A DNA stretch of 64,000 bases from Bdellovibrio sp. 22V (lineage in GTDB: Bacteria; Bdellovibrionota; Bdellovibrionia; Bdellovibrionales; Bdellovibrionaceae), in the NCBI RefSeq assembly GCF_030169785.1, contig NZ_CP125854.1:2976001-3040000 (forward strand). Reading direction: 5' to 3'. The position numbers and the translations under genes are program-made. The notes below the pieces were generated by a model. That model ran no database searches. It saw only the letters and a program-made list of their open reading frames with translations, and was not told the origin of the DNA. Shown one piece after another: positions 10,479 to 55,293 of the stretch. Position 1 is the first letter of the stretch, and each line of letters opens with the position of its first letter.

Positions 10479-13088
10479 CTATTCTCCGATGAGCAAAAGA
10501 TCCTCAAGGACTTTACTTGAACCATATTTGATATGATTGTCGGTGCCGGCCTGCCCGTCTCTGTTGCGACCCCAACACTTAAGCTCATCCCCATCCAAAA
10601 TGGCGCAGACATGCTGAGCAACAGCAAGACTTTGCACCGTGCGACCCGCCCCCAGACTCACCTCTGTAAGAGGCGTCATAGAAGCCGCCGTTCCTCCGCG
10701 AGAGACTGTGTCTTCATAGCCGAGCTGACCATCGGAATTTCGGCCCCAGCATTTCATTTGGTCGTTATCGAGAATCACACACGTGGCGTACCATCCCATC
10801 TTAACCGCTTTCGCCGTTCTTCCGGCGCCGAGATTCACAGTCGTCAAGCCTGCCATCGAGCCCGCCACATTCCCACGATGTGTGAAGTTGCCATAACCGA
10901 GTTGGCCATCTGTGTTTTCTCCCCAGCATTTGAGATCGCCGGTATCAAGCAAAACGCATGTCGAATGCAATCCTGCGGCGATAGCAAGAGCAGTTCTGCC
11001 CGCTCCTATATTGACCTCTGCAAGAGTCGCCATAGAACCCACGCTGTTTCCTTTGTTTGCGGTCGAATCCGTTCCCAGATTTCCATACCAACCATAACCC
11101 CAGCACTTCACGCCGTTGGTATCCAGAATCACGCACGTGTGCATCGCACCCGCTGCAATGGCTTTTGCCGTTCGCCCCGCACCTAAATTCACATAAGCCA
11201 GTGTCGCCATTGAACCCGCGACGTTTCCTTTGTTTGTGGTTGAGTCGTAGCCAAGTTCACCGTTGAGGTTCGAGCCCCAGCATTTCACTTGATCATTATC
11301 TAATATGGCACACGTGTGCCCCGTGCCTACTGCGAGGCTTTTTGCAGTTCGTCCCGCTCCAAGATTGACATACCCCAGTCCTGCCATCGAGCCCGCCGTG
11401 TTTCCTTTCGCTGTCGTACTGTCATAACCTAATTGTCCCGAACCATTCGAACCCCAGCACTTGACTTGATCATTATCGAGAATCGCGCACGTGTAACCTC
11501 CCGCGAGGACCACGGCTTTCGCTGTTCGGCCTGCGCCTAAATTGACCGGGGCTAAGGCCGCGATACTGCCTGCGGTGCCTCCGCGCGCGACCGTGTCGTC
11601 ATAGCCCAATTGCCCTGCGGTATTGCTGCCCCAACATTTAAGATCCCCAGAAGACAGAATGGCGCAAGTGTGGTTAACGCCTGTAACGACTTGAGCGACA
11701 GCACCCACCCCGACCGGCGGCAAATCTGCGAGATTAGCGTCAACGGCAGCGAAGTTGTGGGAAATTTCTTGTCCCAGTTTTCCGTGAGTATTGTCGCCCC
11801 AACATTTAAGAACGTCGGTGTCTAAAACGGCGCAAGAATAAGAATTCCCCAAAGAGAGCGACTTCGCAGTTCGCCCACTGCCAAGATTCACCGTCGGCAA
11901 AGCGGCCATCGAGCCCGGGGTATTCCCGTATTCTTCCGTGTTGTTGTATCCTAACTGACCGGAGACGTTATTTCCGAAACACTTCACTTGATTGTTATCG
12001 AGAATCACACACGTGTGATAATAACCAGCTTTGATTTCTTTGGCGGTGCGACCGACGCCGAGATTGACGGGCACCAACGCCGCCATGTCGCCGGGATCTC
12101 CGCCGCGATAGTTTTCATCGTCGTAACCGGTTTCTCCGTTATTGCTGTTGCCCCAACATTTCACTTCATTGGTATCTAAAATCACGCAGGTGTGTTCTTC
12201 TGCGAGTGCGACTTGTTGGGCCTTGCGACCAGCGCCGATATTCACGGGACCCAAAGCCGCCATTTGTCCCGGAAGATCACCGATGTTATCCCAACTGTCA
12301 TATCCGAGCTGACCGCTGCCATTATATCCCCAGCACTTTAGATCGTCGTTATCCAGAATGGCACATGTATGCAGACCGCCTGCTGCAATGTATTTTACTT
12401 TTCTACCGGCCCCGACATTCACGATCGCGAGGGTCGCCATCTCGTTTGCGTCATCGCCCAAGTCGAAGCTGTCGTCAGAACCAAGCTGCCCATCGCCGCC
12501 ATTGCCCCAACATTTTATATCATCCGTATCAAGAATCGCGCAGACGTGATCGTATCCCGCCGTGATCATTTTCGCCGTTCTTCCCGCACCGAGATTCACG
12601 GCGGAAAGAGCCGCCATACTTCCGACCGTGCCGCCTCGATTGGCGATATCGTTTTGTCCTAGCTGTCCCGCCCAATTATCGCCCCAACATTTGACGTCGC
12701 CATTGTCCAAGACCGCACATGTAAAGTAAGAGCCCGTTGCAATATCAATCGCCGTTCGTCCCGCACCTAAATGCACCGGTGCCAGAGAAGAAACCGATCC
12801 CGCCGAGGCTCCGCGCGCGACTTGATCGTCATAACCAAGCTGACCGTAATTATTAGACCCCCAGCATTTTACTTCGCCGGAAAATAGCAGCACGCACGTG
12901 TGATGAAAGCCCGTTGCGACTTTCTGCACGCGACCGCCGATTTGAATTTTTCCTGTCGGGGTTAAAGGCGGAGTGATCGAGCCCAGATCAGGAAGACTGC
13001 CTGTTGGACGAAAAAAATGCGCATCGATATTACAACCACTCAGCAAGAGAACTGCGAAAAATAATTTTAAAAAAGGCTGCCAATTCAT
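10479..13088 (-). CDS. RCC1-repeat lipoprotein (14 blades)
   Basis: An 869-residue lipoprotein: signal peptide with lipobox LLLSGC, Cys at residue 20. From about residue 50 to the end I count 14 RCC1/BLIP-II-type repeats of about 59 residues with the pattern GRTAK-I-AG-HTCAILD-D-VKCWG-N--GQLGYD---GSMA-L--VNLGA. Each repeat carries two Cys (TCAIL and KCWG), which fits export and one disulfide per blade. RCC1 repeats form seven-bladed propellers; repeat 7 is degenerate and repeat 8 restarts like repeat 1, so two stacked seven-blade propellers are likely. A GGAG ribosome binding site precedes the start. Role unknown; surface binding or adhesion is a guess from the fold. The near-identical repeats will be prone to recombination. 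Confidence 0.88.
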   Translation of the reverse strand: MNWQPFLKLFFAVLLLSGCNIDAHFFRPTGSLPDLGSITPPLTPTGKIQIGGRVQKVATGFHHTCVLLFSGEVKCWGSNNYGQLGYDDQVARGASAGSVSSLAPVHLGAGRTAIDIATGSYFTCAVLDNGDVKCWGDNWAGQLGQNDIANRGGTVGSMAALSAVNLGAGRTAKMITAGYDHVCAILDTDDIKCWGNGGDGQLGSDDSFDLGDDANEMATLAIVNVGAGRKVKYIAAGGLHTCAILDNDDLKCWGYNGSGQLGYDSWDNIGDLPGQMAALGPVNIGAGRKAQQVALAEEHTCVILDTNEVKCWGNSNNGETGYDDENYRGGDPGDMAALVPVNLGVGRTAKEIKAGYYHTCVILDNNQVKCFGNNVSGQLGYNNTEEYGNTPGSMAALPTVNLGSGRTAKSLSLGNSYSCAVLDTDVLKCWGDNTHGKLGQEISHNFAAVDANLADLPPVGVGAVAQVVTGVNHTCAILSSGDLKCWGSNTAGQLGYDDTVARGGTAGSIAALAPVNLGAGRTAKAVVLAGGYTCAILDNDQVKCWGSNGSGQLGYDSTTAKGNTAGSMAGLGYVNLGAGRTAKSLAVGTGHTCAILDNDQVKCWGSNLNGELGYDSTTNKGNVAGSMATLAYVNLGAGRTAKAIAAGAMHTCVILDTNGVKCWGYGWYGNLGTDSTANKGNSVGSMATLAEVNIGAGRTALAIAAGLHSTCVLLDTGDLKCWGENTDGQLGYGNFTHRGNVAGSMAGLTTVNLGAGRTAKAVKMGWYATCVILDNDQMKCWGRNSDGQLGYEDTVSRGGTAASMTPLTEVSLGAGRTVQSLAVAQHVCAILDGDELKCWGRNRDGQAGTDNHIKYGSSKVLEDLLLIGE

Positions 13089-14087: not shown

Positions 14088-17000
14088 CTATTTTTGATAA
14101 ACAGCCTTCTCCAGACGATCCAGGCGCGATTTGATTTCTGCAAGTTCTTTCTCTTTTTGAGCCTTCTCATTTTCGAGCATTTGGATGCGCTGATCTTTTT
14201 CTGCCACGGTGGATTTTAACTGTGTTATTTCAGCGTATAAAGCCTTGAGAGCCGAGACAAAGGGCGCCACCAAGTGAGAGTAGTTCACCGATTTCATCCC
14301 GTGGGCGTCGGTGTCGACAAGCTCTGGATAAATCTTCTCAATTTCTTGCGCGATAAATCCCAATTGCAGACGCTCGCCGTGTTCGGGGTTTTTCCAGTGG
14401 TAGCTGACACCTTCGACTTGCAATAGCTTATTCAACTCTTGCTGAGGCGACAGAGATGCGATGTCTCGCTTTAAACGAACGTCAGAAGAGTCGGTGATAC
14501 CAAACGCCCGCAGCGTGCCGTTCACATCCAGCCTATAACCCGGAGCTGTTGTGCCAATGCCGACATTACCTAAGGTATTGACGTGAATTCTTGGCGAGTT
14601 GTTTGTCCAAAGTTCTAAGACACCGTCCGAAACCCAGTCCAGTCCCGTGTCGTTATCACCAATTGTCAGCGCAAGAGAAGGTGTTGTCGAACCCCACCCG
14701 GAAGTATCGTACACATAAAGTTTGTCCTTGATGAAAGTGTTACCCTCAACGTGGAGTTTCGTATTTGGATTTGTCGTCCCGAGACCCACATTTCCGCCGA
14801 AATAACTTTTCGTGCTTCCATCCGCATAAATCGCGAAGTTATTCGTGGCCTTCGTCAGGTTTTGTATAAAGAGTCCGTATTGATTTGTGGGAGTTCCCGT
14901 TCCTCCGCCGTTTTCCGCGTAGTAACCGTAGGCATTCGTGAGCGTCTGCCCCGCGCTGCTGTCTACCCTCGCCCAATGCGACATGGCCTCTGTTGTTGTT
15001 CCACCGGCTGCTCCGCCTACGATAAGCGATTGGACTCCCACCGTTTTGGCAAGCGTGCCACTTGTATGACTGGGGTAAACGTTAGCGCGAATGCCGGCTT
15101 TCCAGTTCGCACTGTTTTGCGTGAAATAGGTCTGTGTCAGCAACCCGTATTCTTCCCCTGCATTATTCACATTGAAGTTCTTGTAAACATGCAGCGGATA
15201 GGTTGGCGACGTTGTTCCAATACCGATATTTCCGTCGTCATTGATCGTCATACGCACAGCACTGTTGGTTGTGCCATTAGGGATCGTCGAAAAGTGCATC
15301 GCGCCCCCTTGCGCCGTGGTCGAGTGATCTTCCGTCGCAAGCACTTGTATATTGTTTGTAGGAGGCGTGATCGAATTGGCGTCGACGAATGAAATCATTC
15401 CAAGACTTGCGCCATTACTCACGGTGCCGGATCTCATTGTCTGAAAAACAGGCGCGGTCGCGCTCGATGTAGCTGTCGTGTTATAAAAAGTGGTGCCGAC
15501 AGCATTAAAGCGAGCCACAAAAGTTCCACTGGCAGAGATACCGACCTGCCCCGCCGTGGGTGAGTAAATTCCCGTCGTTGTGCTGCCAGAGAAGGCCAAC
15601 GATGGAGCCGTGTTCGTTCCATTCGGCATTAAAATCTGTCCGGTGCCGATATGCAAAGTGGAACTCGGTGAGCTCGTACCAATACCCACATATCCTGAAC
15701 CAGAAATGCGCATGCGCTCACTCACGGTCGTGGTGTTGTCAGTCCGAGTAGAAAAAGAAATGTTGGTGCCAAATCCGCTGGCGCCGCCGGTGCCCTCCAA
15801 AGACGACATGATATAAGCATCCCCGCCTGTCGTCCCAGGAGACACGTTATTTAAAGACGTAAACTGAATGGCTCCGATTCTATCCCCACTGGCTGCCGTT
15901 GGCTGATCTCCTCCCAAACGAAGAACACCATGGGATTGATTTGAGTTGCCACCCGTTCCCGTGATACCGACATAACGAGAAAATGAGTTGGATGTTTTTC
16001 CCAGCGTAGGGCTATTCGTACCGATAGCGATGTTACCATTCGTATCGACGGTCATTCGCGTGGTTCCGGCAGTTTCAAAGCTAAGATTAAAAGCGTCATT
16101 CGTTCCGAGGATTGTTGCGCCTCCAAAACTATTACCGCCATTCGTAAAAAATCCCAGCGAGGTATTACTGGAACATCCCATCACTCCGGAAGCATCGAAA
16201 GTGATAAGCTCACCCAAAGCACAATTAAATACGGTGACGGCAGAACCCGTTCCATTGCTTGCAAGAAGGCGGTTTGCCGTTAAAGATGTCACACCCGTTC
16301 CGCCTTTGCTGACTGGCACCGTGGGCAGTTGTGACGTCGCGATAGTTCCGCTGATATCACTAAAACCTAAAAGAGCATTCACCCAGTTTGTGCCGTCGTA
16401 TCTCAGCGTCTGACCTGCAGCATAAGCGACAGGCGCCACTGTTTTGCCTTTGATTTTATCGACACTTGTTGTGCTTGAAGTTCCGCTGACGTCTCCACTA
16501 AACGTAGAGGCCGTACCTAACTTATCATTGAAAGTATTCCAGTCCGTCGAAGTTAAAAGCCCTGTCGTAGAGGTGTTTGCTGTTGGAATCGCAACATTGC
16601 TTGCCGCCGTCAAACGCCCTTGCGCATCGACGGTGAAGGTTGGGACTTGCGTGGCTGAACCGTAAGAGCCCGCCGTCACTGAAGTGTTCGCCAAAGAAAT
16701 CGTTCCCGTCGTCGTCACAGGTCCGCCGGTAAGTCCCGTTCCGGTTGCAACACTCGTCACTGTTCCACCGCTTCCGTTAGCGGAAGCAATCACATCCCAA
16801 GAAGTTCCATTGTCGCGATAGATTTTTAAAGTGTCCGACGCGACATAAAGACGTCCCGCAGTACCGGCGCTTCCTTTCGTCGCATCGGTGCCGGATTTAA
16901 TGCTCGGTGTTCCCCCGGTATTTTGAACGGCGTCGGTGACTCCGTAACCACTGAGAGTCGTTGGTTTTCCCGTTGTGATTTTACTCCAATCCAACGCCGG

Positions 17001-18758
17001 AATGTCCGTGGCAGACAAAGTCGTTCCCGAGGTCACTCGGCCTTGCGCATCTGTTGTCACTTTCGTGTAGGTTCCCGCCGTGCCCGTGTTCTTAAGACTG
17101 ACGGCTCCAGTTCCTGAGATCGTCGCATCCCCACTGAAGGACGACGGAGCATACTGAGTTCCATTGTAAATTAAAACTTGCCCTGTCGTGGGCGCCGTTG
17201 CGCTCACCGCGGTGCCTTTGATTTTGTCTACGCTTGTCGCATTGTAAGTTCCGGAAATATCACCGCTGAAAGAAGTCGCTGTGCCAAGTTTGTTATTAAA
17301 AGTATTCCAATCCGCGGAAGTAAGTAAACCCGTCGTGGCAGTATTAGCCGTTGGAACCGCAACATTGCTTGCCGCTGTCAAACGCCCTTGTGCATCGACC
17401 GTGAAACTTGGAACTTGCGTGCCCGAGCCGTAAGAACCTGCCGTCACTGAAGTGTTCGCCAAGGAAATCGTTCCCGTCGTCGTCACAGGTCCACCGGTAA
17501 GTCCCGTGCCGGTTGCAACACTCGTCACTGTTCCGCCAGCATTGCTGTCATTCGCAGGCGCCCACTTAGTTCCGTCATATTTAAGAATCTGCCCGGATGT
17601 CAGCCCTGTCGTATCAACGGTGACACCTTTGATTTTATTTACAGTGACCGCGCCAATCGTTCCACTCACGTCACCTGCGACCGACACATTGATCGCCTGA
17701 CATAAAAACGAACCGGAGACGGAATTCCAATAAGGCGTTTCATAGACCGCACAGTTCGCCCCACCTACTGCAGAATTAAAGGCCGATACCGTAAGGTAGT
17801 TGCTCAAAGTCGAATTCAGATTCGTCACATCACTCATGGCAATTGCGGAGCCCACCCATTGTGTGCCGTCATACTTTAAGAAATGACCATTCGACGGAGC
17901 TGCGGAAGAAACAGCCACACCTTGGATTTTAGCGACCGAAGGGTTCGGATAAGTGCCGCTCAGATCTCCACCAGCACCGCCTGTGGGAGGACGAGCGTCG
18001 CTGAATCGGGCATCATCCCCTGCAGCCACTGTTCCCGCTGTCGTACCAACATGTAAAGTTAAAGCCGGAGTGGATGTCCCATTCACCACGCTAAGATAAG
18101 AATTCGTCGACGTCACCGAAGTGACCGTACCTCCGCTGGCGCCGCTGACGGGAGCACACGCCAACGTCGTTCCATTCCAACTCAGAAATTCATTTGTCGC
18201 ACAAGTCGGAATTCCCGCTTTCAACAAAAAATCACTGGCGATATTCGTTCCCAATTTTTGCGATGAAAGCGCATAAGCAGAGTACGGAACGGAACGAATC
18301 ATATTGTCGGGAGAAATCAATCTCCATCCGTTGCCGTCGTGAAACTGCGCTCGCAATAATCGTCCGTCCGAACTCACGGGAGTGTAAGTGCTCGTCCCAT
18401 CCGCACAAGTATAACCAGCGCAAGCGCCGCAATTAAAAGTCTTGGAGTTATTAAAAGCCTCAAGAATATTCGTGCTTCCACTCAATGGATAATTAACAGT
18501 TCCCTTGCCAATCGGAACGTCAAACACCCCTTTGGAGTTTGCCATGTTGATGCCGGTAACTTGCTCTTGAAAAACCACGCACTGGCCCGAGGGATCGGTA
18601 ATCTGAAAAATAAAACTGACGTTGGAATATTCAAGCGGGTTTCCGTCGGATTTTAAAATACGCCCTTGATAAGTCAAAGACCCTGGCGACGCGAACAAAG
18701 CGCTCGACCAGAGAATCATAAAACTGATCCAAGAGACGTACCGACAAAAGAGTGTCAT
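14088..18758 (-). CDS. Large trimeric fibre protein with C-terminal S74 chaperone domain (prey-adhesin type)
   Basis: 1556 residues. A signal peptide (ending SSALFA, residue 23) is followed by a head domain (24-185, [31 protein letters not shown]). A very long Gly/Ser/Thr/Asn-rich shaft of repeated modules follows ([62 protein letters not shown]). The C-terminal intramolecular chaperone domain (about 1420-1556) carries the Ser1425/Lys1430 dyad in SDVRLK, spaced as in phage endosialidase tailspikes, and ends in a coiled coil. This matches the mosaic adhesive trimer fibres described in Bdellovibrio. It is probably exported, trimeric and prey-binding; the ligand is unknown. A sigma-28-type promoter ends 7 nt before the ATG, and there is no Shine-Dalgarno sequence. 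Confidence 0.88.
16551..16763. repeat. Direct repeat copy A inside the fibre gene
   Basis: This ~210-bp block is nearly identical to 17318-17540 in the same orientation. It encodes the module from [14 protein letters not shown] through [14 protein letters not shown] to the TSxDWNTF segment. The differences are scattered single bases. Confidence 0.85.
17318..17540. repeat. Direct repeat copy B inside the fibre gene
   Basis: Second copy of the block at 16551-16763. A shorter relative of the same module ([11 protein letters not shown]) is present in the second fibre gene at about 54.5 kb, which suggests shuffling of cassettes between fibre genes. Confidence 0.85.
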
Positions 18759-18765
18759 AGATTAT

Positions 18766-18792
18766 TTATCGGATTTTTTTGATGATTATTTA
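18766..18792 (-). promoter_or_regulatory. Sigma-28 (FliA)-type promoter of the large fibre gene
   Basis: On the minus strand TAAA (18792-18789), a 15-nt spacer and TCCGATAA (18773-18766) match the sigma-28 consensus TAAA-N15-GCCGATAA at all but one position. The -10 ends 7 nt before the ATG at 18758, so the transcript should begin at or next to the start codon. Confidence 0.75.
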
Positions 18793-18831
18793 ACAGGCCT
18801 ATATAAAACTGCTCGCATTTCTCATGAGTTC

Positions 18832-18862
18832 ATTAATCCGTCTCAGAATGAAACGGATTAAT
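18832..18862. terminator. Inverted repeat after the Asp-box lipoprotein gene
   Basis: ATTAATCCGT and ACGGATTAAT form a perfect 10-bp stem with an 11-nt loop; GTTCAT and ATGAAC extend it outside a 3-nt bulge. It lies between the stop of the Asp-box gene and the fibre promoter. There is no T-run on the minus-strand side, so it may be a weak terminator or a protein-binding site. Confidence 0.45.
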
Positions 18863-18872
18863 TACATGAACT

Positions 18873-21377
18873 TTAGTGCGACGACGTAGTCAGCGATCTT
18901 AGCATTGCGCGTGCACCAAGATATGGATCATTGTAGGTGTAATTCAACAGAATATCCGACGGTCCAAGATATATAAATTTATCCTCGTGCAATTCCACGT
19001 CATATTCATCGACGGTTTCACCGACTAATCGTCGTTGCTGCGAACTTTCCATGACGACCCAAGCCCCCGACGCTTCTCCCGCTTTCACAACGGCCGTTTT
19101 ATGTGCGGTATCTGCCACCATGAAATAGATTTCATTATCGATCCATGCAATATCTTTGATACTGCTGCTCGGGGCATTGCTAGATGAACTCCAACTTACA
19201 CCGTGGTCGGTAGAAACGAAAAGACCACCGCCATCAGAAACGAATATTTCACCTGAGGGGCTCTGCCTTAAGGCTGAGTTAAAACTATAGTAGTCTCCCA
19301 CAAAAGCTCCTCTAAAGGATTCTGTCCAGGTCACACCACCATCTCTTGATTGATGCACAACGCATCTGCCATTGCCTCCGGTTCTCTCACGAAGCTCGAC
19401 ATAAAGATTCCCTATATCGTCGACCAACACGGATTTTAAAGTTATGTCGTCAATTCCTCCGGGGGTCGTTAGTGCCGTGACTTCGCTCCAAGTCACTCCA
19501 TCCGTTGACTTGTGGATGCGAATGGTTAAGCCGTCATCATAGGCGAAGATGGTTTCAGTATTCCCTCGCTTTGCGAGCAGCATCTTATCACTGTATCCTG
19601 CGCCGGCATAAAGCACGTCCGTCCACGTCACACCGTCTGGAGAGCGGCGGATAAGTCGATCGGCTCCTTTTATTCCTACGGCGTAAAGACCCCCATCATG
19701 ACCTTGTATAAAATCGTGAACGTAAGTTTGGCCGGAAGGAAGTTTGAAGCGATCTGCCTCTTGCCAGGACACCCCATTGTCCAAGCTTTTCATAATCAAC
19801 CACGGCCAACCGCCTTCTTCGTCGCCAGTATCAAAAACTGCATACAGTGTGGTTGACGATGCGCGAATGATCTTCGTCAACGAACTCCAAAAGGCCCAGT
19901 AAAAACGTACTTTTCCCCGCTCACTCCAATTCACTCCATCGTCCGCAGAAAAGGCGCTTGTCGATTGATCGCCGACATGATTGTAACTAAATGCCAACAC
20001 CTTGGAGCTGGTGGGATGGGATGCAATGGACAGTCCGTACGGTTTATTTGTTGATCCAAACTGCACATCCAAATCGACGACGTTCCAAGTGGCACCACTG
20101 TCAGCGGATCTCACGACTTTCCAATCCGCTGTGGATGAAACGCGATTACCGCCGACGGCGACAAGACTGCCAGAGCTTGTCAGCGTCATCCCCTGCAAGA
20201 AGCTTTGTCCGGAGTAAACTTCTGACCACGTAACTCCTGCATCCGTGGTTCTATAGATCTTGCCGGAGCTTGAAACCCGGCATGAGTAAAAGGCCGTCGT
20301 GTTGCTGACAACTTTGAGACTGCCACGAAGTTGATAATCTCCGTAGGGAGTGACTGCGGGAATGCTTGTTGCCGGAGTCCATGACCAAACTCCCGCATTT
20401 TCTTCGCCCCTCAAAAAATACATCGTATTCGTTTCACCCATAATGAACAGTTGACCGGACGGTGAAATTTCAATTTGATAAGCAAGCGCATAGCTTCCCC
20501 CACCCGGAACACCACGATAGATCGTTTGCCATGTCATTCCGTCATCTCGACTTTCTCGTACGATCCAATCAGAACCCAACCCCGAATCGGCATACCCCAC
20601 GGCATAAATAAATCCAGTTACCGGAGAAACAGCAATATCGTAACAAACATGGTCTCCCAGAGGCGGCTCCCACCAGGCGTCGACAGTGGTCCACGTCGTT
20701 CCCTCATCAGTAGAACGACGAACGAACCAACCAGAATTTGGATCTGATGGAGTCGTGTCATAAAGATAGGCATAACCACAAACAAAAACCATACTCCCCT
20801 TTGCCACCATGGAGAGAGGGTGTGATTCACCGAGGTAACTGAATCCCATAAACTGATCGACACGACTCCAGGTCGCACCATCGTCCGCGCTTCGATAAGT
20901 GGCCCAGCGCTCTCCCATATAGTCACTGCCAATCGCCGTTGCCAAAACATGGCCAGAACTCAACCATACGGCATCCGAGACATAGTTTTGATCCATCTCC
21001 GTAACTTGAGGCATTTCCACCTTCATAAAAGGCGCGAAGCCTTTTCGACGAATGGTAACGGCAAATGTTTTTCCAGTGCTGTCGGTGATTTCGACGGTCT
21101 CATTTTCAAGGGGAGCATTAACGGGAATTGAATACTCCCCCGCCGATGTGTCTAAATATCCAGAAGTTGCAGGCTTGTAACTAAAGGGCGGAGTGCCACC
21201 GAGTGGCTCCAATTTTTTTGTGGAACCTACATCCATTATAATAGAAAGAGGAATGGCTTCCTCTTTTAAAGATAATGCCTCCTTTTCAAGAAACGCTTCT
21301 ATCGTGCAACCTGACGATAGTAATACGATCATGAAAAGAACCAGTCCCTGAAACGCGCAAGAAATCGACTGAATCAT
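18873..21377 (-). CDS. Asp-box (BNR/sialidase-like propeller) lipoprotein
   Basis: 834 residues, starting with a lipoprotein signal peptide (VLLSSGC, Cys at residue 24). Residues about 45-115 look like a small beta-sandwich (SIIMDVGSTKKL, GTPPFSY, VTIRRKG). The rest contains at least eleven Asp-box motifs (S-D-G-TW type, for example SADDGATW, STDEGTTW, SRDDGMTW, TTDAGVTW, SLDNGVSW, STDHGVSW), the mark of sialidase- or sortilin-like beta-propellers. I see no sialidase Arg triad by eye, so binding is more likely than catalysis. A sigma-28-type promoter (21385-21411) lies just before the start, as for the neighbouring fibre gene, with no ribosome binding site. The signal peptide n-region lacks Lys and Arg, so the exact start is not certain. 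Confidence 0.82.
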   Translation of the reverse strand: MIQSISCAFQGLVLFMIVLLSSGCTIEAFLEKEALSLKEEAIPLSIIMDVGSTKKLEPLGGTPPFSYKPATSGYLDTSAGEYSIPVNAPLENETVEITDSTGKTFAVTIRRKGFAPFMKVEMPQVTEMDQNYVSDAVWLSSGHVLATAIGSDYMGERWATYRSADDGATWSRVDQFMGFSYLGESHPLSMVAKGSMVFVCGYAYLYDTTPSDPNSGWFVRRSTDEGTTWTTVDAWWEPPLGDHVCYDIAVSPVTGFIYAVGYADSGLGSDWIVRESRDDGMTWQTIYRGVPGGGSYALAYQIEISPSGQLFIMGETNTMYFLRGEENAGVWSWTPATSIPAVTPYGDYQLRGSLKVVSNTTAFYSCRVSSSGKIYRTTDAGVTWSEVYSGQSFLQGMTLTSSGSLVAVGGNRVSSTADWKVVRSADSGATWNVVDLDVQFGSTNKPYGLSIASHPTSSKVLAFSYNHVGDQSTSAFSADDGVNWSERGKVRFYWAFWSSLTKIIRASSTTLYAVFDTGDEEGGWPWLIMKSLDNGVSWQEADRFKLPSGQTYVHDFIQGHDGGLYAVGIKGADRLIRRSPDGVTWTDVLYAGAGYSDKMLLAKRGNTETIFAYDDGLTIRIHKSTDGVTWSEVTALTTPGGIDDITLKSVLVDDIGNLYVELRERTGGNGRCVVHQSRDGGVTWTESFRGAFVGDYYSFNSALRQSPSGEIFVSDGGGLFVSTDHGVSWSSSSNAPSSSIKDIAWIDNEIYFMVADTAHKTAVVKAGEASGAWVVMESSQQRRLVGETVDEYDVELHEDKFIYLGPSDILLNYTYNDPYLGARAMLRSLTTSSH

Positions 21378-21384
21378 GTTTTAT

Positions 21385-21411
21385 TTATCGGAGTTTTTTA
21401 ACGCTGTTTTA
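21385..21411 (-). promoter_or_regulatory. Sigma-28 (FliA)-type promoter of the Asp-box lipoprotein gene
   Basis: On the minus strand TAAA (21411-21408), a 15-nt spacer and TCCGATAA (21392-21385), identical in both boxes and spacing to the promoter at 18766-18792. Again exactly 7 nt separate the -10 from the ATG. Confidence 0.75.
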
Positions 21412-21476
21412 GCACCCAAAATAAGAAAAATTCGAAAACCCGTCTTAATTCGAGACAAGAAATCTGCTGATTTATT

Positions 21477-37265: not shown

Positions 37266-40079
37266 CTACGGATTGTAGACACAGCGGAATCCGCCCGTGG
37301 TTTTTCCTTGATTCGACTGAAGATCGCGAACGGCGGTGAAAACTCCGGCGGCATTACCGTCTCCTCCCGAACCTCCACGCCAGATCACCGGGCCTGATAA
37401 AGTAAAATCCAATTTTCCATAACCGCAATAGTCAGGGCTTCCGCCGGGAGTGCACGAATTGAGCGTGCCGTACTTGCTGCGCAACTGACCCGCTGTGGAG
37501 ATCAAAGCCGCCACCCACCCGCTTGTCGGTGAATAAACGATATTATCCGTGTCGTAAGTCACTTCCGCAACGTTTCCGGAAATATCCCAGATCACTTGTC
37601 CATAAGGCAGGTGATGTGTGCGGCGAAGAGCATTGCTCTGACAAATCGATGCCGAGTTGGGATAACAAGGATCGCCTTCACTCGCAACGGCAGGTGTCGA
37701 CACTTGATTGTTTCCCCTTTGCAAAACGCCTTTTTCAACAATGCTTTCGTAAACGCCACCGTTGTTGTAAGTCCAGTTCGCGGCTTGACTGCGAATCCAG
37801 TCCGCCAGCGTATTCCACTCTTGATTGCTGATAAGTTTATATCCAGCCCCCATGCTTGAGCACGCCCCTGTTGCCTGCTGCAAGGTCACGTTAACAAGCG
37901 GAGCCCCCGCAGCGGTGAACTGCGGATTGGCTATTGAGTTTTTCGCCTCAAACTTCGCAACACAAAACGGATCTACAGCCGGTGCCGCAGGATTAAATAC
38001 ATAAACAAAATCTGCGGGACACTGAAAAGACGTGTAAAGCTGAGAGTTCGTTGTCGTGTTTCCAAGCGAATCCGCCAAAACGATTTCTATTCTATATTGC
38101 GCGCCTAAAACGACATTCCCCTGAGGAATCGCAAAACCGGAGCCAGTGGTAAAATCCGTAACCGTGCTTACAACGAAATTATCTGAAACGCGAACAAGCT
38201 TTCCCGTCACTGTCAGAACATCCGGATCTGCAGGCAAAGTAAAATTCACCAGTGGCGAGTCAATGACTCTGGTCGGAACAGCAGACAAGCTGAAACTTGT
38301 CAGATCCAGAGGCGGCTGCGAATCAATCGTGATATTCTGTGAAGCCAAAGAGTTTGGATTTGACGAAGAATTATTCGGCAATGTTCTTGAAGCTAGAACC
38401 TCATTATTGAATCCGTCTTTGATTGTCGCGCCATTAAGCTCGATCTCCGTGCCCTGCACATTCAACGGTGCCGCATATTTATTGGGCGGAACGATATAAA
38501 TAAATTTGATGACACGATCGCCGACCAACCCGGCAGAGAAAGCATATTCGCCGGTATTGAGAAGGACCTTCACATCCCCAGTCAGTGTGATAGGGCGGTC
38601 ATATTCCGCATAAATCGTGATGGTCGCTCCGCCGCCGTGCCGAGTGCTCACTGTCATCGGTGTAGTAACACGTGTGACAACGGGAACTGGAAACTGCGTT
38701 GTAAACGTAAAAGGATTCTGCCCGGCTGAGGTGCCATTGCCATTGGCATCCTTTGCTTGGGCGTAAATTCTATAAGACGTGCTTTGCTGCAAAACACAGG
38801 ACGTGAAGATCACGTAACTATTTGTCGTGCTTTGCATGGGGCAGACCGTGACACCGGCGGAGTCCTTTACCATCACTTCATAAGTCGCAGCCCCGTTTGA
38901 CGAAGACAGATCCACACGCAAGCCCTTGTCCGTCAAAAGAGCATCAATCGCCACATCTGCAGGTCCTTCGGAAGATCGCACTCCGCTGATGCTGAAGCTG
39001 CCCGGGCCCGTTGTGTCTTTCTCGAGAGAAAGCAGTAAAGAGGCGCCTTCATTGCCAGCATCATCGGCTTGTTTCGCCGTCAGCGTAAAAGGTCCCTCGG
39101 GCACGACGACATCGGCGGCGAACGTTCCCGCGGCCGAACAAGTGGCATTTGCAAGCGAGCTGGCACCGTTCAATTCAATGGCGACAGCCTTCATCGTCTC
39201 TGAACACGTCCCGGCAAGATGAACCGTGCCCACCGTCACAAAGTCAACGGAGGTAAAGATCTTGCCGGAAGAAGGCTCTGTAAAGGTCACAACCGGAGCG
39301 GTGAAATCGACCGTAACTTGAGTTGAAGCAACTCCATAAGCACGGAAATTTGTTCCGATCATGTGCGCGACTTTGAGCTCACTGATTTTTTCAGGAGTGC
39401 TTGTATTCACAGACACCGGAATAGAAAAGCCGTTGTCGGTACAAGTTCCTTCAAAGGCGCTCGTCAGAAACTCGGCATTGATTTCAATTCTACCGCCATT
39501 TTCAGCGCACGTTCCCGTCACCACATACTGCCCGTTCGCTGCATTCGCCAAAGAGGCATTGGGAGCTGCGACTGTCACCGCGGGCGCTTTAAAGAATGCC
39601 GACAGCGTTCGATAATAAACGGACGTTTCCCCTTCCAGATTCTTCACCATCCAACGGATCTGGAAGTCTTTGCGCTGATCACCGGCGGACGTCGGAGCAC
39701 TGAAAGGCACGATCTGTTGCAAAGGGATTTGCAAAGACACGGTTCCCGTCGCCGCGCAATCGAACGTCGCACCGGCCACAAGTTCAGAAACTTTTTTCCA
39801 GGCTTTCGATTCTGCGTTTTGAATCTCGAAGCTTGTCACCGCCTTATTGCACGTAATCTCAAAAGGAATAAACTCGTTCGCAGCGTCAGGCAGCATATCG
39901 CCCGTTCCTTGAACGTTGGTGATTTTGAATTCCGATTTTTCAGAGAGGGCTTTGTTGAGAAAACCGATTTGCAGTTCACGCTCACTACAAGCGCTGAGAA
40001 TAAAAACAAACAAAAGGGGTAACCAAGTCCCCTTCAGTCCGAAAGCCTGTGCTATCCCCTCTCCACCGCGAATGTGCAT
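37266..40079 (-). CDS. Large lipoprotein with Ig-like repeats and a C-terminal FGE/C-type-lectin-like domain
   Basis: 937 residues from the ATG at 40079; the lipobox is ILSAC with Cys at residue 31. The middle consists of repeated Ig-like beta-sandwich domains (TFDCAATGTVSLQIPL, VTFTEPSSGKIFTSV, SFSISGVRSSEG). The last ~230 residues look like an FGE-sulfatase (C-type-lectin-like) domain: FCVAKFEAKN, LISNQEWNTLADWI, VIWDISGNVAEVTYD, VIWRGGSGGDGNAAG, GGFRCVYNP. The paired active-site Cys of true formylglycine-generating enzymes is not apparent, so ligand binding is more likely than catalysis. A sigma-28-like -10 box ends 7 nt before the ATG with no ribosome binding site. A start further inside, for example CTG at residue 15, cannot be excluded. 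Confidence 0.82.
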   Translation of the reverse strand: MHIRGGEGIAQAFGLKGTWLPLLFVFILSACSERELQIGFLNKALSEKSEFKITNVQGTGDMLPDAANEFIPFEITCNKAVTSFEIQNAESKAWKKVSELVAGATFDCAATGTVSLQIPLQQIVPFSAPTSAGDQRKDFQIRWMVKNLEGETSVYYRTLSAFFKAPAVTVAAPNASLANAANGQYVVTGTCAENGGRIEINAEFLTSAFEGTCTDNGFSIPVSVNTSTPEKISELKVAHMIGTNFRAYGVASTQVTVDFTAPVVTFTEPSSGKIFTSVDFVTVGTVHLAGTCSETMKAVAIELNGASSLANATCSAAGTFAADVVVPEGPFTLTAKQADDAGNEGASLLLSLEKDTTGPGSFSISGVRSSEGPADVAIDALLTDKGLRVDLSSSNGAATYEVMVKDSAGVTVCPMQSTTNSYVIFTSCVLQQSTSYRIYAQAKDANGNGTSAGQNPFTFTTQFPVPVVTRVTTPMTVSTRHGGGATITIYAEYDRPITLTGDVKVLLNTGEYAFSAGLVGDRVIKFIYIVPPNKYAAPLNVQGTEIELNGATIKDGFNNEVLASRTLPNNSSSNPNSLASQNITIDSQPPLDLTSFSLSAVPTRVIDSPLVNFTLPADPDVLTVTGKLVRVSDNFVVSTVTDFTTGSGFAIPQGNVVLGAQYRIEIVLADSLGNTTTNSQLYTSFQCPADFVYVFNPAAPAVDPFCVAKFEAKNSIANPQFTAAGAPLVNVTLQQATGACSSMGAGYKLISNQEWNTLADWIRSQAANWTYNNGGVYESIVEKGVLQRGNNQVSTPAVASEGDPCYPNSASICQSNALRRTHHLPYGQVIWDISGNVAEVTYDTDNIVYSPTSGWVAALISTAGQLRSKYGTLNSCTPGGSPDYCGYGKLDFTLSGPVIWRGGSGGDGNAAGVFTAVRDLQSNQGKTTGGFRCVYNP

Positions 40080-40086
40080 AGGAAAC

Positions 40087-40094
40087 TTATCGGA
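40087..40094 (-). promoter_or_regulatory. Sigma-28-like -10 element before the Ig-like lipoprotein gene
   Basis: TCCGATAA on the minus strand ends exactly 7 nt before the ATG at 40079, the same placement as at 18766 and 21385. The expected -35 position reads CAGA instead of TAAA, so the match is partial. Confidence 0.5.
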
Positions 40095-52780: not shown

Positions 52781-55237
52781 TTATTTCGCGTTGAGAATCG
52801 TCTCAATTCTATCGAGGCGCGCTTTTATTTCCGCGTTTTCCTGGCGAAGCCGTGCATTTTCACTCGTGATGCGAATGTTTTCTGTGGCAAGTGACTGACT
52901 CTGCCCATGCAGGGCTTTGACGGCTTCGATTAACGGTGCAACTAAGTGATCGTAGGCCACCGTTTTATACCCGGTTTTTTTATCCGTCACCACCACTTCA
53001 GGATACACCTTTTCAACTTCCTGCGCGATGACCCCCACTTGATGTCTGGCGCTGAATTTTTCTTTGTCTTTATAATCGTACTCTACACCTTGCAGTCGTA
53101 AGATTTTTTCCAGCGAGTCTTCAAGAGGTTTAATGTTTTCTTTGAGTCTTTCGTCAGACGCAGAAGTACATCCTGAACTTGTACAAACAGCAACGCCTGC
53201 AAACCGTAAAGCAGATCCCGAGGCGATATTAATATCACCGCCAACATCAAGCTTAGAGGCCGGCGTTAAATTTCCTATTCCCACGTTACCGCCAATACGA
53301 TTGATGCTTAGATGGCCTGCGGCTCCCGAAAAATCGATTCCCTGAATCAAACCTGTAGAGGTACCGCTTGAACCTAAAGCCACTCCGCCCATTGCCGTGC
53401 TGGCTTGAAACATGGAGGCCAAACCGGTTCCGTTATCTTTAACAACATGAATGCCGGCAAGAGGGTTGACCGTTCCGACGCCGACGTTGCTGCCGTTATT
53501 AAAATAAGTCGACATTCCTGAGGAGGCCCCGATTCTCACTTGCGTAGGCCCTCCCCGATCTATGAACAGATCACCTGTGATGTTAACGGGGTAAATAGAT
53601 CTGATGTAGCCTCCGCTAAACGCCCACTGCGATGCAGATGTTTGGGTGCTGCCATCAGGGAACTTGAATCCTCCGGATAAAGATTCGATCACACCAAGAA
53701 CGGAAAGCTTTTGCGTCGGCGTATTCGTTCCTATGCCGACATTCCCACTGTAATAAATCCCGCCGCTTCCTCCCTGGCTCCATACTTTCGCAGAAGATGG
53801 CAAATCTTGCCATGTCGCTAAACCCGCCGCATCCGAAGTTAAAACTTTTCCCGCTCCCGGTGTGCCGCCGGTGACTTTTATCTGTCCGTTGACTTCAAGT
53901 TTCGCACCAGGAGAAACAGTCCCAATACCAATATCGCCTGTTGGTGCAACGACTAGAAGATAACTGAAGGTCGCATAATCGAATAATCCAAGATAACCGG
54001 GCCCTGTCGAATTCGAAGTGCCCGTCGAGATCCAAGAGTATTCGCGCCCTCCTGCTCCAGAACTTTTCAACGAAAGATTCGCACCCGCCCCCCCTTTGTT
54101 TTCAATCATGAGTCCCTGGTCCTGAGCAGATTCATCATAGAGCAAATGCAATCTGCGCTCAGGAAGATTCGTTCCCACGCCGACATTGCCCGCATTGTAA
54201 AAAGTGTCGGTGCCATTAATACTCCAAGGACCTACGGGAGGTGCGGACCAACTGCCATCACCGCGCAGATACGTCGTTGCATCCGCGACTCCAGTTCCTA
54301 AGCGCGACGTCGCGATCGTCCCTGATGTAATTCCACTCGCATCTATGGCGATACTTGCGCAAGCAAACTGAGAACTGACAGAATTCCAATACATTGTTTG
54401 TCCTGCAGTACAATTCGCTGTCGATACGTATCCCGCAAACACCGTTGTTGTAACATAGTTCGCAAGTGTCGCCGAAAGGTCCGTCACCTGACTTGTACTT
54501 ACACTCAGAGCGGAGTGAGAAGCACTCGTCAAACGTCCTTGGGCATCGACCGTGAAACTCGGAATCTGCGAACTAGAACCATAGGTCCCCGGCACCACCG
54601 TCGTATTCGCAAGACTGAATGTCGCAGAAATACAGCTTAAATTCGTGCCGTTATAAGAAAGAAATGTATTTGCCGGGCATGTCGGCACACCTGTTTTCAA
54701 AACAAAGTCAGACGCCGAGTACGCCCCGAGCTTTTCTGAAAACTTCGCATAGGACGCATAGGGCACGGTGCGAATCACATTATCAGGAGAAATCGTTTTC
54801 CAGCCGACTCCATCATAAAAAGAAACGCGAAGCTTACGCAGGTCTCCCGCCGAAGCATTGTAAGTATGCGTGCCATTCACGCAAGAATAAAGACTTCCGG
54901 AAATAGAGCAAACACCACACGAAAAATTCGCTGAATTATTAAAGGCATCTAGAACGCTGGAAGGACCGCTTAAGGGATATTGAACGGCCCCGTTACCGAT
55001 AGGCACATCAAAGATGCCTCCGGAGTTCACCATATTATAACCCGTCAACTGTTCTTGATAAATCACGCAGCTTCCCGAAGGATCCGTAATTTGAAATAGA
55101 AAGGAAACGTTTCCATATTCCAACGGAGTTCCGTCAGATTTCAGAATACGCCCTTGATAGGTCAGAGACGAAGGAGAAGCATAACTCGAAGAAACCCCGA
55201 GAAATGCTACGAGTCCTGAAACGATCCAAGTTTTCAT
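52781..55237 (-). CDS. Second trimeric fibre protein with S74 chaperone domain (prey-adhesin type)
   Basis: 818 residues, about half the length of the first fibre. Signal peptide (ending SSSYA) and the same head domain ([31 protein letters not shown]). The shaft is shorter, with one [14 protein letters not shown] module and several NVGIGTNTP-type pattern repeats. The C-terminal chaperone domain shows Ser694/Lys699 in SDERLK, the dyad spacing of self-cleaving endosialidase chaperones, and ends in a coiled coil. The two fibres share head and tail while the middle differs, the mosaic pattern of the Bdellovibrio adhesive trimer family. The gene has a normal GGGGAG ribosome binding site, unlike the first fibre, and a GAGCGC-N9-GCGCTC site 77 bp upstream of its start. 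Confidence 0.87.
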   Translation of the reverse strand: MKTWIVSGLVAFLGVSSSYASPSSLTYQGRILKSDGTPLEYGNVSFLFQITDPSGSCVIYQEQLTGYNMVNSGGIFDVPIGNGAVQYPLSGPSSVLDAFNNSANFSCGVCSISGSLYSCVNGTHTYNASAGDLRKLRVSFYDGVGWKTISPDNVIRTVPYASYAKFSEKLGAYSASDFVLKTGVPTCPANTFLSYNGTNLSCISATFSLANTTVVPGTYGSSSQIPSFTVDAQGRLTSASHSALSVSTSQVTDLSATLANYVTTTVFAGYVSTANCTAGQTMYWNSVSSQFACASIAIDASGITSGTIATSRLGTGVADATTYLRGDGSWSAPPVGPWSINGTDTFYNAGNVGVGTNLPERRLHLLYDESAQDQGLMIENKGGAGANLSLKSSGAGGREYSWISTGTSNSTGPGYLGLFDYATFSYLLVVAPTGDIGIGTVSPGAKLEVNGQIKVTGGTPGAGKVLTSDAAGLATWQDLPSSAKVWSQGGSGGIYYSGNVGIGTNTPTQKLSVLGVIESLSGGFKFPDGSTQTSASQWAFSGGYIRSIYPVNITGDLFIDRGGPTQVRIGASSGMSTYFNNGSNVGVGTVNPLAGIHVVKDNGTGLASMFQASTAMGGVALGSSGTSTGLIQGIDFSGAAGHLSINRIGGNVGIGNLTPASKLDVGGDINIASGSALRFAGVAVCTSSGCTSASDERLKENIKPLEDSLEKILRLQGVEYDYKDKEKFSARHQVGVIAQEVEKVYPEVVVTDKKTGYKTVAYDHLVAPLIEAVKALHGQSQSLATENIRITSENARLRQENAEIKARLDRIETILNAK

Positions 55238-55267
55238 AAGGTGGCTCCCCTATTGTCACTACGTTCC

Positions 55268-55293
55268 TTATCGGTTCTGAGGCCGCCTCCAAA
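55268..55293 (-). promoter_or_regulatory. Sigma-28-like -10 element with TTTGGA before the second fibre gene
   Basis: ACCGATAA on the minus strand (55275-55268), 30 nt before the ATG, preceded by 12 nt and TTTGGA. Same arrangement as at 49788. Confidence 0.4.

Follow-up and report, generated by a model that had tools for sequence, protein, structure and literature searches.

Predicted leaderless FliA promoters at a fixed distance from the start codon precede prey-recognition fibre and surface lipoprotein genes in Bdellovibrio

In Bdellovibrio bacteriovorus HD100, the flagellar-type sigma factor FliA (sigma-28) is essential, and in Escherichia coli, flagellin and TAD promoters are driven by FliA from either B. 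bacteriovorus or B. exovorus (PMC5430801). In HD100, FliA runs most attack-phase promoters, and the motif TTAAG-N16-CCGATA, taken as the FliA site, is present in 92 of the 140 mapped attack-phase promoters (PMC3627812). The mosaic adhesive trimer (MAT) proteins of HD100 have an invariant domain of ~130 aa directly behind the signal peptide, variable tips, and, in 13 of 21 cases, an S74 domain, and at least one of them was seen late, at 120 to 180 min into predation (PMC10769870). The distance between a sigma-28 -10 element and its start site has been described in other bacteria. The E. coli Ptar promoter, GCCGATAA-cgagatc-A(+1), has 7 nt from the -10 element to +1 (PMC4604602), and Campylobacter jejuni sigma-28 boxes are located 6 to 8 nt ahead of the start site (PMC3847290). 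In addition, Streptomyces whiH, which is transcribed under sigma-WhiG (GCCGACAA), provides a single-gene leaderless precedent for a sigma-28-type promoter.

The window analyzed here, a 64,000-nt stretch of the Bdellovibrio sp. 22V genome, contains two matches to TAAA-N14-16-TCCGATAA, both with a 15-nt spacer and both on the minus strand, one upstream of a large fibre gene (18766-18792) and the other upstream of an Asp-box lipoprotein gene (21385-21411). The chance expectation for this pattern is 0.02 per window on the basis of dinucleotide shuffles, and two matches were obtained in none of the 100 shuffles. Both -10 elements differ from the E. coli sigma-28 consensus by a single base (T in place of G at the first position of GCCGATAA). 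A sequence-only reading of this DNA had proposed twin TAAA-N15-TCCGATAA sites that are one base from the sigma-28 consensus and lie at the same place in both genes, and the searches bear this out, with exactly 7 nt separating CCGATAA from the ATG in each case (ATAATCT before the ATG at 18758 and ATAAAAC before the ATG at 21377). The stretch shared by the twins is longer than that reading gave, namely AAAAAA-n-TCCGATAAATAA-nnn-ATG, and in the 3.60-Mb genome only the twin sites match it, even when three mismatches are permitted. The fibre promoter consists of a putative -35 element, TTAAA (18789..18793, -35 to -31 from the ATG), the -10 element TCCGATAA (18766..18773, profile score 16.5), and the 7-nt spacer with the ATG (18756..18765), whereas the lipoprotein promoter has CTAAA (21408..21412), TCCGATAA (21385..21392), and its own spacer and ATG (21375..21384), all on the minus strand. 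Written as TTAAA-N16-CCGATA and CTAAA-N16-CCGATA, the twins share the register of the HD100 motif TTAAG-N16-CCGATA, and the fibre -35 element was assigned from this register and from the MAT promoter profile described below. A Shine-Dalgarno site is absent before both ATGs, and the preceding 20 nt consist of AT-rich sequence plus CCGATAA.

The fibre gene (14088..18758, minus strand) encodes a protein of 1,556 aa with a signal peptide, an N-terminal domain of ~150 aa, and a C-terminal S74 domain (PF13884, Peptidase_S74, at residues 1425-1481, E 2e-16) in which SDVRLK fits the SDxxxK motif. Its N-terminal domain shows 55 to 63% identity to six paralogs over ~170 aa. By domain and sequence comparison, the product is a predicted MAT prey-recognition fibre of the S74 subgroup, the likeness of its N-terminal domain to those of HD100 being one of description. 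The lipoprotein gene (18873..21377, minus strand) encodes an Asp-box/BNR repeat protein of 834 aa with the lipobox LSSGC. It adjoins the MAT fibre gene here, and in three genomes (G001, G018, and G008) it immediately follows a MAT gene, in the opposite order; this adjacency suggests a functional link between the two proteins. A third -10 element registered to a start codon, CCGATAA-GTTTCCT-ATG (40080..40093, minus strand), heads a gene for a 937-aa lipoprotein-like surface protein with a weak Ig-like match (37266..40079, minus strand). The window also carries, at 10479-13088 on the minus strand, a gene for an 869-aa protein made mostly of RCC1 repeats (14 stretches), which has a Shine-Dalgarno-like site and no CCGATAA.

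A single FliA gene (C1:936176; 281.8 bits versus a family cut-off of 189.6, E 6e-84) exceeds the cut-off in the one-contig, 3.60-Mb genome. CCGATAA is present in all five Asp-box lipoprotein orthologs with a recognisable start region, at 7, 7, 7, and 8 nt from the ATG in four genomes whose proteins are ~55% identical, and at 6 nt in the one genome where identity falls to 31%. The four ~55% identical orthologs also retain TAAA at N15-16 (about 16 to 17 nt) before the -10 element. The loose form TAAA-N14-16-NCCGATAA occurs 25 times genome-wide versus 11 times for the reversed pattern, and because this enrichment is only about 2-fold, the match to the -35 and -10 elements alone is modest evidence; it is the constant placement with respect to the ATG that makes the promoter evidence strong. 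A sigma-28 (FliA) promoter before both twin genes is thus well supported by sequence comparison. This part of the sequence-only reading stands, given the FliA gene, the fit to the HD100 motif, and the conservation among orthologs, but that reading missed the leaderless placement, the wider set of genes, and the fact that FliA control of surface genes had already been published. It had also placed the twins under the motility and prey-search programme. By analogy with HD100, attack-phase timing would be expected for both genes, although the MAT protein seen late in HD100 warns against labelling the whole family as attack-phase only, and not all members need be so. An A-tract plus CCGATAA was also considered as the true motif in place of a sigma-28 promoter, and it was dropped when the MAT profile showed T(-35) and the published register.

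If the 7-nt offset of E. coli applies, the +1 of each twin would be the A of its ATG, at 18758 for the fibre and, as the spacing in the orthologs also suggests, at 21377 for the lipoprotein, and both mRNAs should therefore be leaderless, with neither a 5' leader nor a Shine-Dalgarno site. Transcription usually starts at a purine that follows a pyrimidine. In 47 of 47 non-redundant MAT promoters, the base adjoining the ATG is a pyrimidine, and positions -2 to -4 are almost uninformative. Where a start of this genome is led by a Shine-Dalgarno site, the corresponding proportion of pyrimidines is 58%. Among genomic CCGATAA sites, a pyrimidine occupies this position in 28 of 32 cases with the 7-nt spacing (N7) versus 40 of 80 at other spacings. 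These features are consistent with mRNAs that should begin at the A of the start codon. An unstructured 5' end, considered as a further mark of leaderless messages, was unsupported, as the initial 30 nt of the mRNA show no less structure than those of other genes.

The spacing was counted in a genome sample of 1.62 Mb, made up of 1.56 Mb of evenly spread 20-kb stretches plus the window. In 13 cases, CCGATAA precedes the ATG of an open reading frame of at least 60 aa by exactly 7 nt, compared with 0.87 for permuted 7-mers, and every other spacing from 0 to 60 yields at most 4. The codon that follows CCGATAA-N7 is preferentially ATG (13), with fewer cases of GTG (3) and TTG (2), versus 0.9 to 1.3 at other spacings. 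In the whole genome, CCGATAA-N7-ATG occurs 32 times and the reversed pattern 4 times, and we estimate that the genome has a set of some 28 such sites, the twins included. The enrichment is strongest within the genus and weaker yet still present outside it, since 568 sites versus 55 for the reversed pattern are found in 24 same-genus genomes, 372 versus 107 in other genera of the family, and 524 versus 182 in the rest of the order. The genes outside the MAT family that have the N7 arrangement include those for lipoproteins with weak Ig-like matches, a histidine kinase, an HD-domain protein, and a PilZ protein. Four large genes that follow one another at G000:C1 536153-546060 encode three MAT fibres and one lipoprotein with weak Ig-like matches, and each has its own CCGATAA-N7-ATG.

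At least seven of the N7 sites of this genome precede genes that encode the same N-terminal domain behind a signal peptide, and these fibre genes are assigned to the MAT family because this domain fits the description of the HD100 MATs. The domain is encoded by 25 genes in this genome and is present in 26 of the 30 genomes searched. For 78 MAT genes of this genome and its relatives, start codons were picked blind to the motif, and the 60 nt upstream were read. A perfect CCGATAA is present within these 60 nt in 52 of the 78 genes, and in 38 of the 52 it is at exactly 7 nt; a further 20 genes have CCGATAA with one mismatch, at 7 nt in 11 of them. The profile built from the MAT promoters has T(-35) in 77% and T(-34) in 57%, which is the register of TTAAG-N16-CCGATA. 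Only 13 of 47 MAT promoters have a complete T(T/A)AA in the zone searched for the -35 element, which is thus loose in this family. Some MAT genes are without the N7 arrangement (e.g., L216, L265, and L271). Distant MATs with 36 to 39% identity, from Bdellovibrio sp. qaytius and a Pseudobdellovibrio metagenome-assembled genome (MAG), also have the -10 element at 7 nt, followed by a GTG start in 7 of 10 loci; their starts were chosen with the motif in view, and their N-terminal peptides are alike. Five loci from these two sources (L284, L286, L287, L288, and L293) have GTG as the MAT start 7 nt past CCGATAA, and their annotated starts may be wrong.

Leadered FliA-type genes exist alongside this arrangement. 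The flagellin genes L032, L033, L036, and L037 have a Shine-Dalgarno site ahead of the ATG. Throughout the flagellin genes L032 to L037, there is no perfect CCGATAA near the start, and variants such as CCGAAAAG and CCGATCAG are found upstream of some of them. A FliA profile scan that is blind to start codons yielded 39 sites at a score of at least 16 versus 12 in the reversed control, which is weakly above background, and it was used for leader lengths only and not to list a regulon. In the sample, the predicted leaders are either 0 nt (16 cases) or 13 to 46 nt, with few between, the longer ones often having a Shine-Dalgarno site; MAT promoters with the 7-nt spacing to the ATG served to train the profile, and the peak at 0 therefore counts as independent evidence only outside the MAT genes. 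MAT genes of both kinds occur in the window, the predicted leaderless one at 18758 and a leadered one at 55237. The latter encodes an 818-aa S74 MAT fibre (52781..55237, minus strand) and is preceded by a FliA-type -10 element (CCGATAA at 55268-55274) and the Shine-Dalgarno site GGGGAG, with a predicted leader of 23 nt (55245..55274, minus strand).

We consider it very probable that a FliA promoter with CCGATAA 7 nt before the ATG gives rise to leaderless mRNA in a genus-wide set of genes that includes MAT genes. RNA polymerase with FliA would transcribe both twin genes from CCGATAA 7 nt ahead of the ATG, and transcription would begin at the A of the ATG, yielding a leaderless mRNA. Translation would then need no Shine-Dalgarno site and would most probably involve binding of the 70S ribosome to the 5' AUG. 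Throughout the genus, this start-codon-registered promoter would be common to the MAT prey-recognition fibres and to further proteins, most of them exported, while leaders with Shine-Dalgarno sites precede the flagellin genes and certain others predicted to be under FliA.

The same motif could instead belong to ordinary FliA promoters if the annotated ATG were not the real start and translation began at a later codon behind a leader. Alternative in-frame starts are present in a few MATs (L223, L224, L238, and L246), and the window MAT at 55237 is truly leadered, but with the ATG as the start, signal peptides and lipoboxes are normal, the conserved N-terminal peptides M(R/K)xGTYL of the MATs and MIQSxS of the lipoprotein begin at the ATG, and a later start would require neither the fixed 7 nt nor the -1 pyrimidine; we regard this explanation as very unlikely. 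Equally improbable in our view is that CCGATAA is bound by another sigma factor or regulator and resembles a sigma-28 element incidentally. The weak -35 element in many members and the common G(T)TAA-A-rich stretch immediately ahead of the -10 element would suit such a factor, whereas the experimentally derived HD100 attack-phase FliA motif has the same -10 element, spacing, -35 register, and G at -7, FliA of B. bacteriovorus and B. exovorus is active in E. coli on the promoters of flagellin and TAD genes, and a single FliA is found over the cut-off. The identity of the twins might also reflect a recent promoter duplication and chance, with no wider meaning, and the twins do resemble each other more than any third site. 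The same geometry, however, is present ahead of dozens of genes and in the ~55% identical lipoprotein orthologs, and with the counts disfavouring it, duplication is the least likely of these explanations. A FliA promoter registered to the start codon, with a predicted leaderless transcript, is therefore the reading that we prefer.

Such a promoter would provide a rule for the MAT fibre regulon, namely a fixed promoter-to-AUG distance that predicts start sites to the base. The rule would also correct start-codon calls, including GTG in the qaytius lineage, and make the regulon readable in unstudied predators. If true, this would be the first family-wide set of leaderless mRNAs from a flagellar-type sigma factor, as judged from the papers searched, and it would link the life-cycle switch of the predator to both transcription and translation. 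A more speculative extension, which we think rather doubtful, is that FliA may run two classes of transcripts, leadered ones for flagellins and others and leaderless ones for prey-recognition fibres and surface lipoproteins, in which case the non-growing attack cell could produce, or go on producing, its prey-binding surface with a type of translation initiation that differs from that of its remaining proteins.

The control of surface genes by FliA in the attack phase has been described before, as have MAT fibres and leaderless mRNAs, and in the open-licence literature searched, no paper joins Bdellovibrio with leaderless mRNAs or FliA with MAT fibres. The HD100 attack-phase FliA promoters have the same -10 CCGATA, the same -35 register, and surface-protein targets (PMC3627812), and the texts searched on the HD100 FliA promoters say nothing of transcripts that lack a leader, of a constant spacing between promoter and start codon, or of the MAT family taken as a whole. 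The HD100 MATs, with about 20 paralogs per genome, likewise have the signal peptide, N-terminal domain, and S74 domain with SDxxxK that are seen in the protein encoded at 14088-18758, and the paper that describes them is silent on promoters, FliA, and 5' ends (PMC10769870). Bacterial leaderless mRNAs share with the twins a -10 element near the start codon and the lack of a Shine-Dalgarno site, and their +1 at the AUG is what is predicted for the twins (review, PMC9031893; survey, PMC3160421). The survey scanned sigma-70 Pribnow boxes only (PMC3160421), and the leaderless genes of C. jejuni are all sigma-70 dependent (PMC3847290), unlike the predicted sigma-28 sites here. Compared with these systems, what appears new is that promoter and start codon keep a fixed register in a large adhesin family and across a genus, in a predicted leaderless subset of FliA promoters that covers much of the MAT family.
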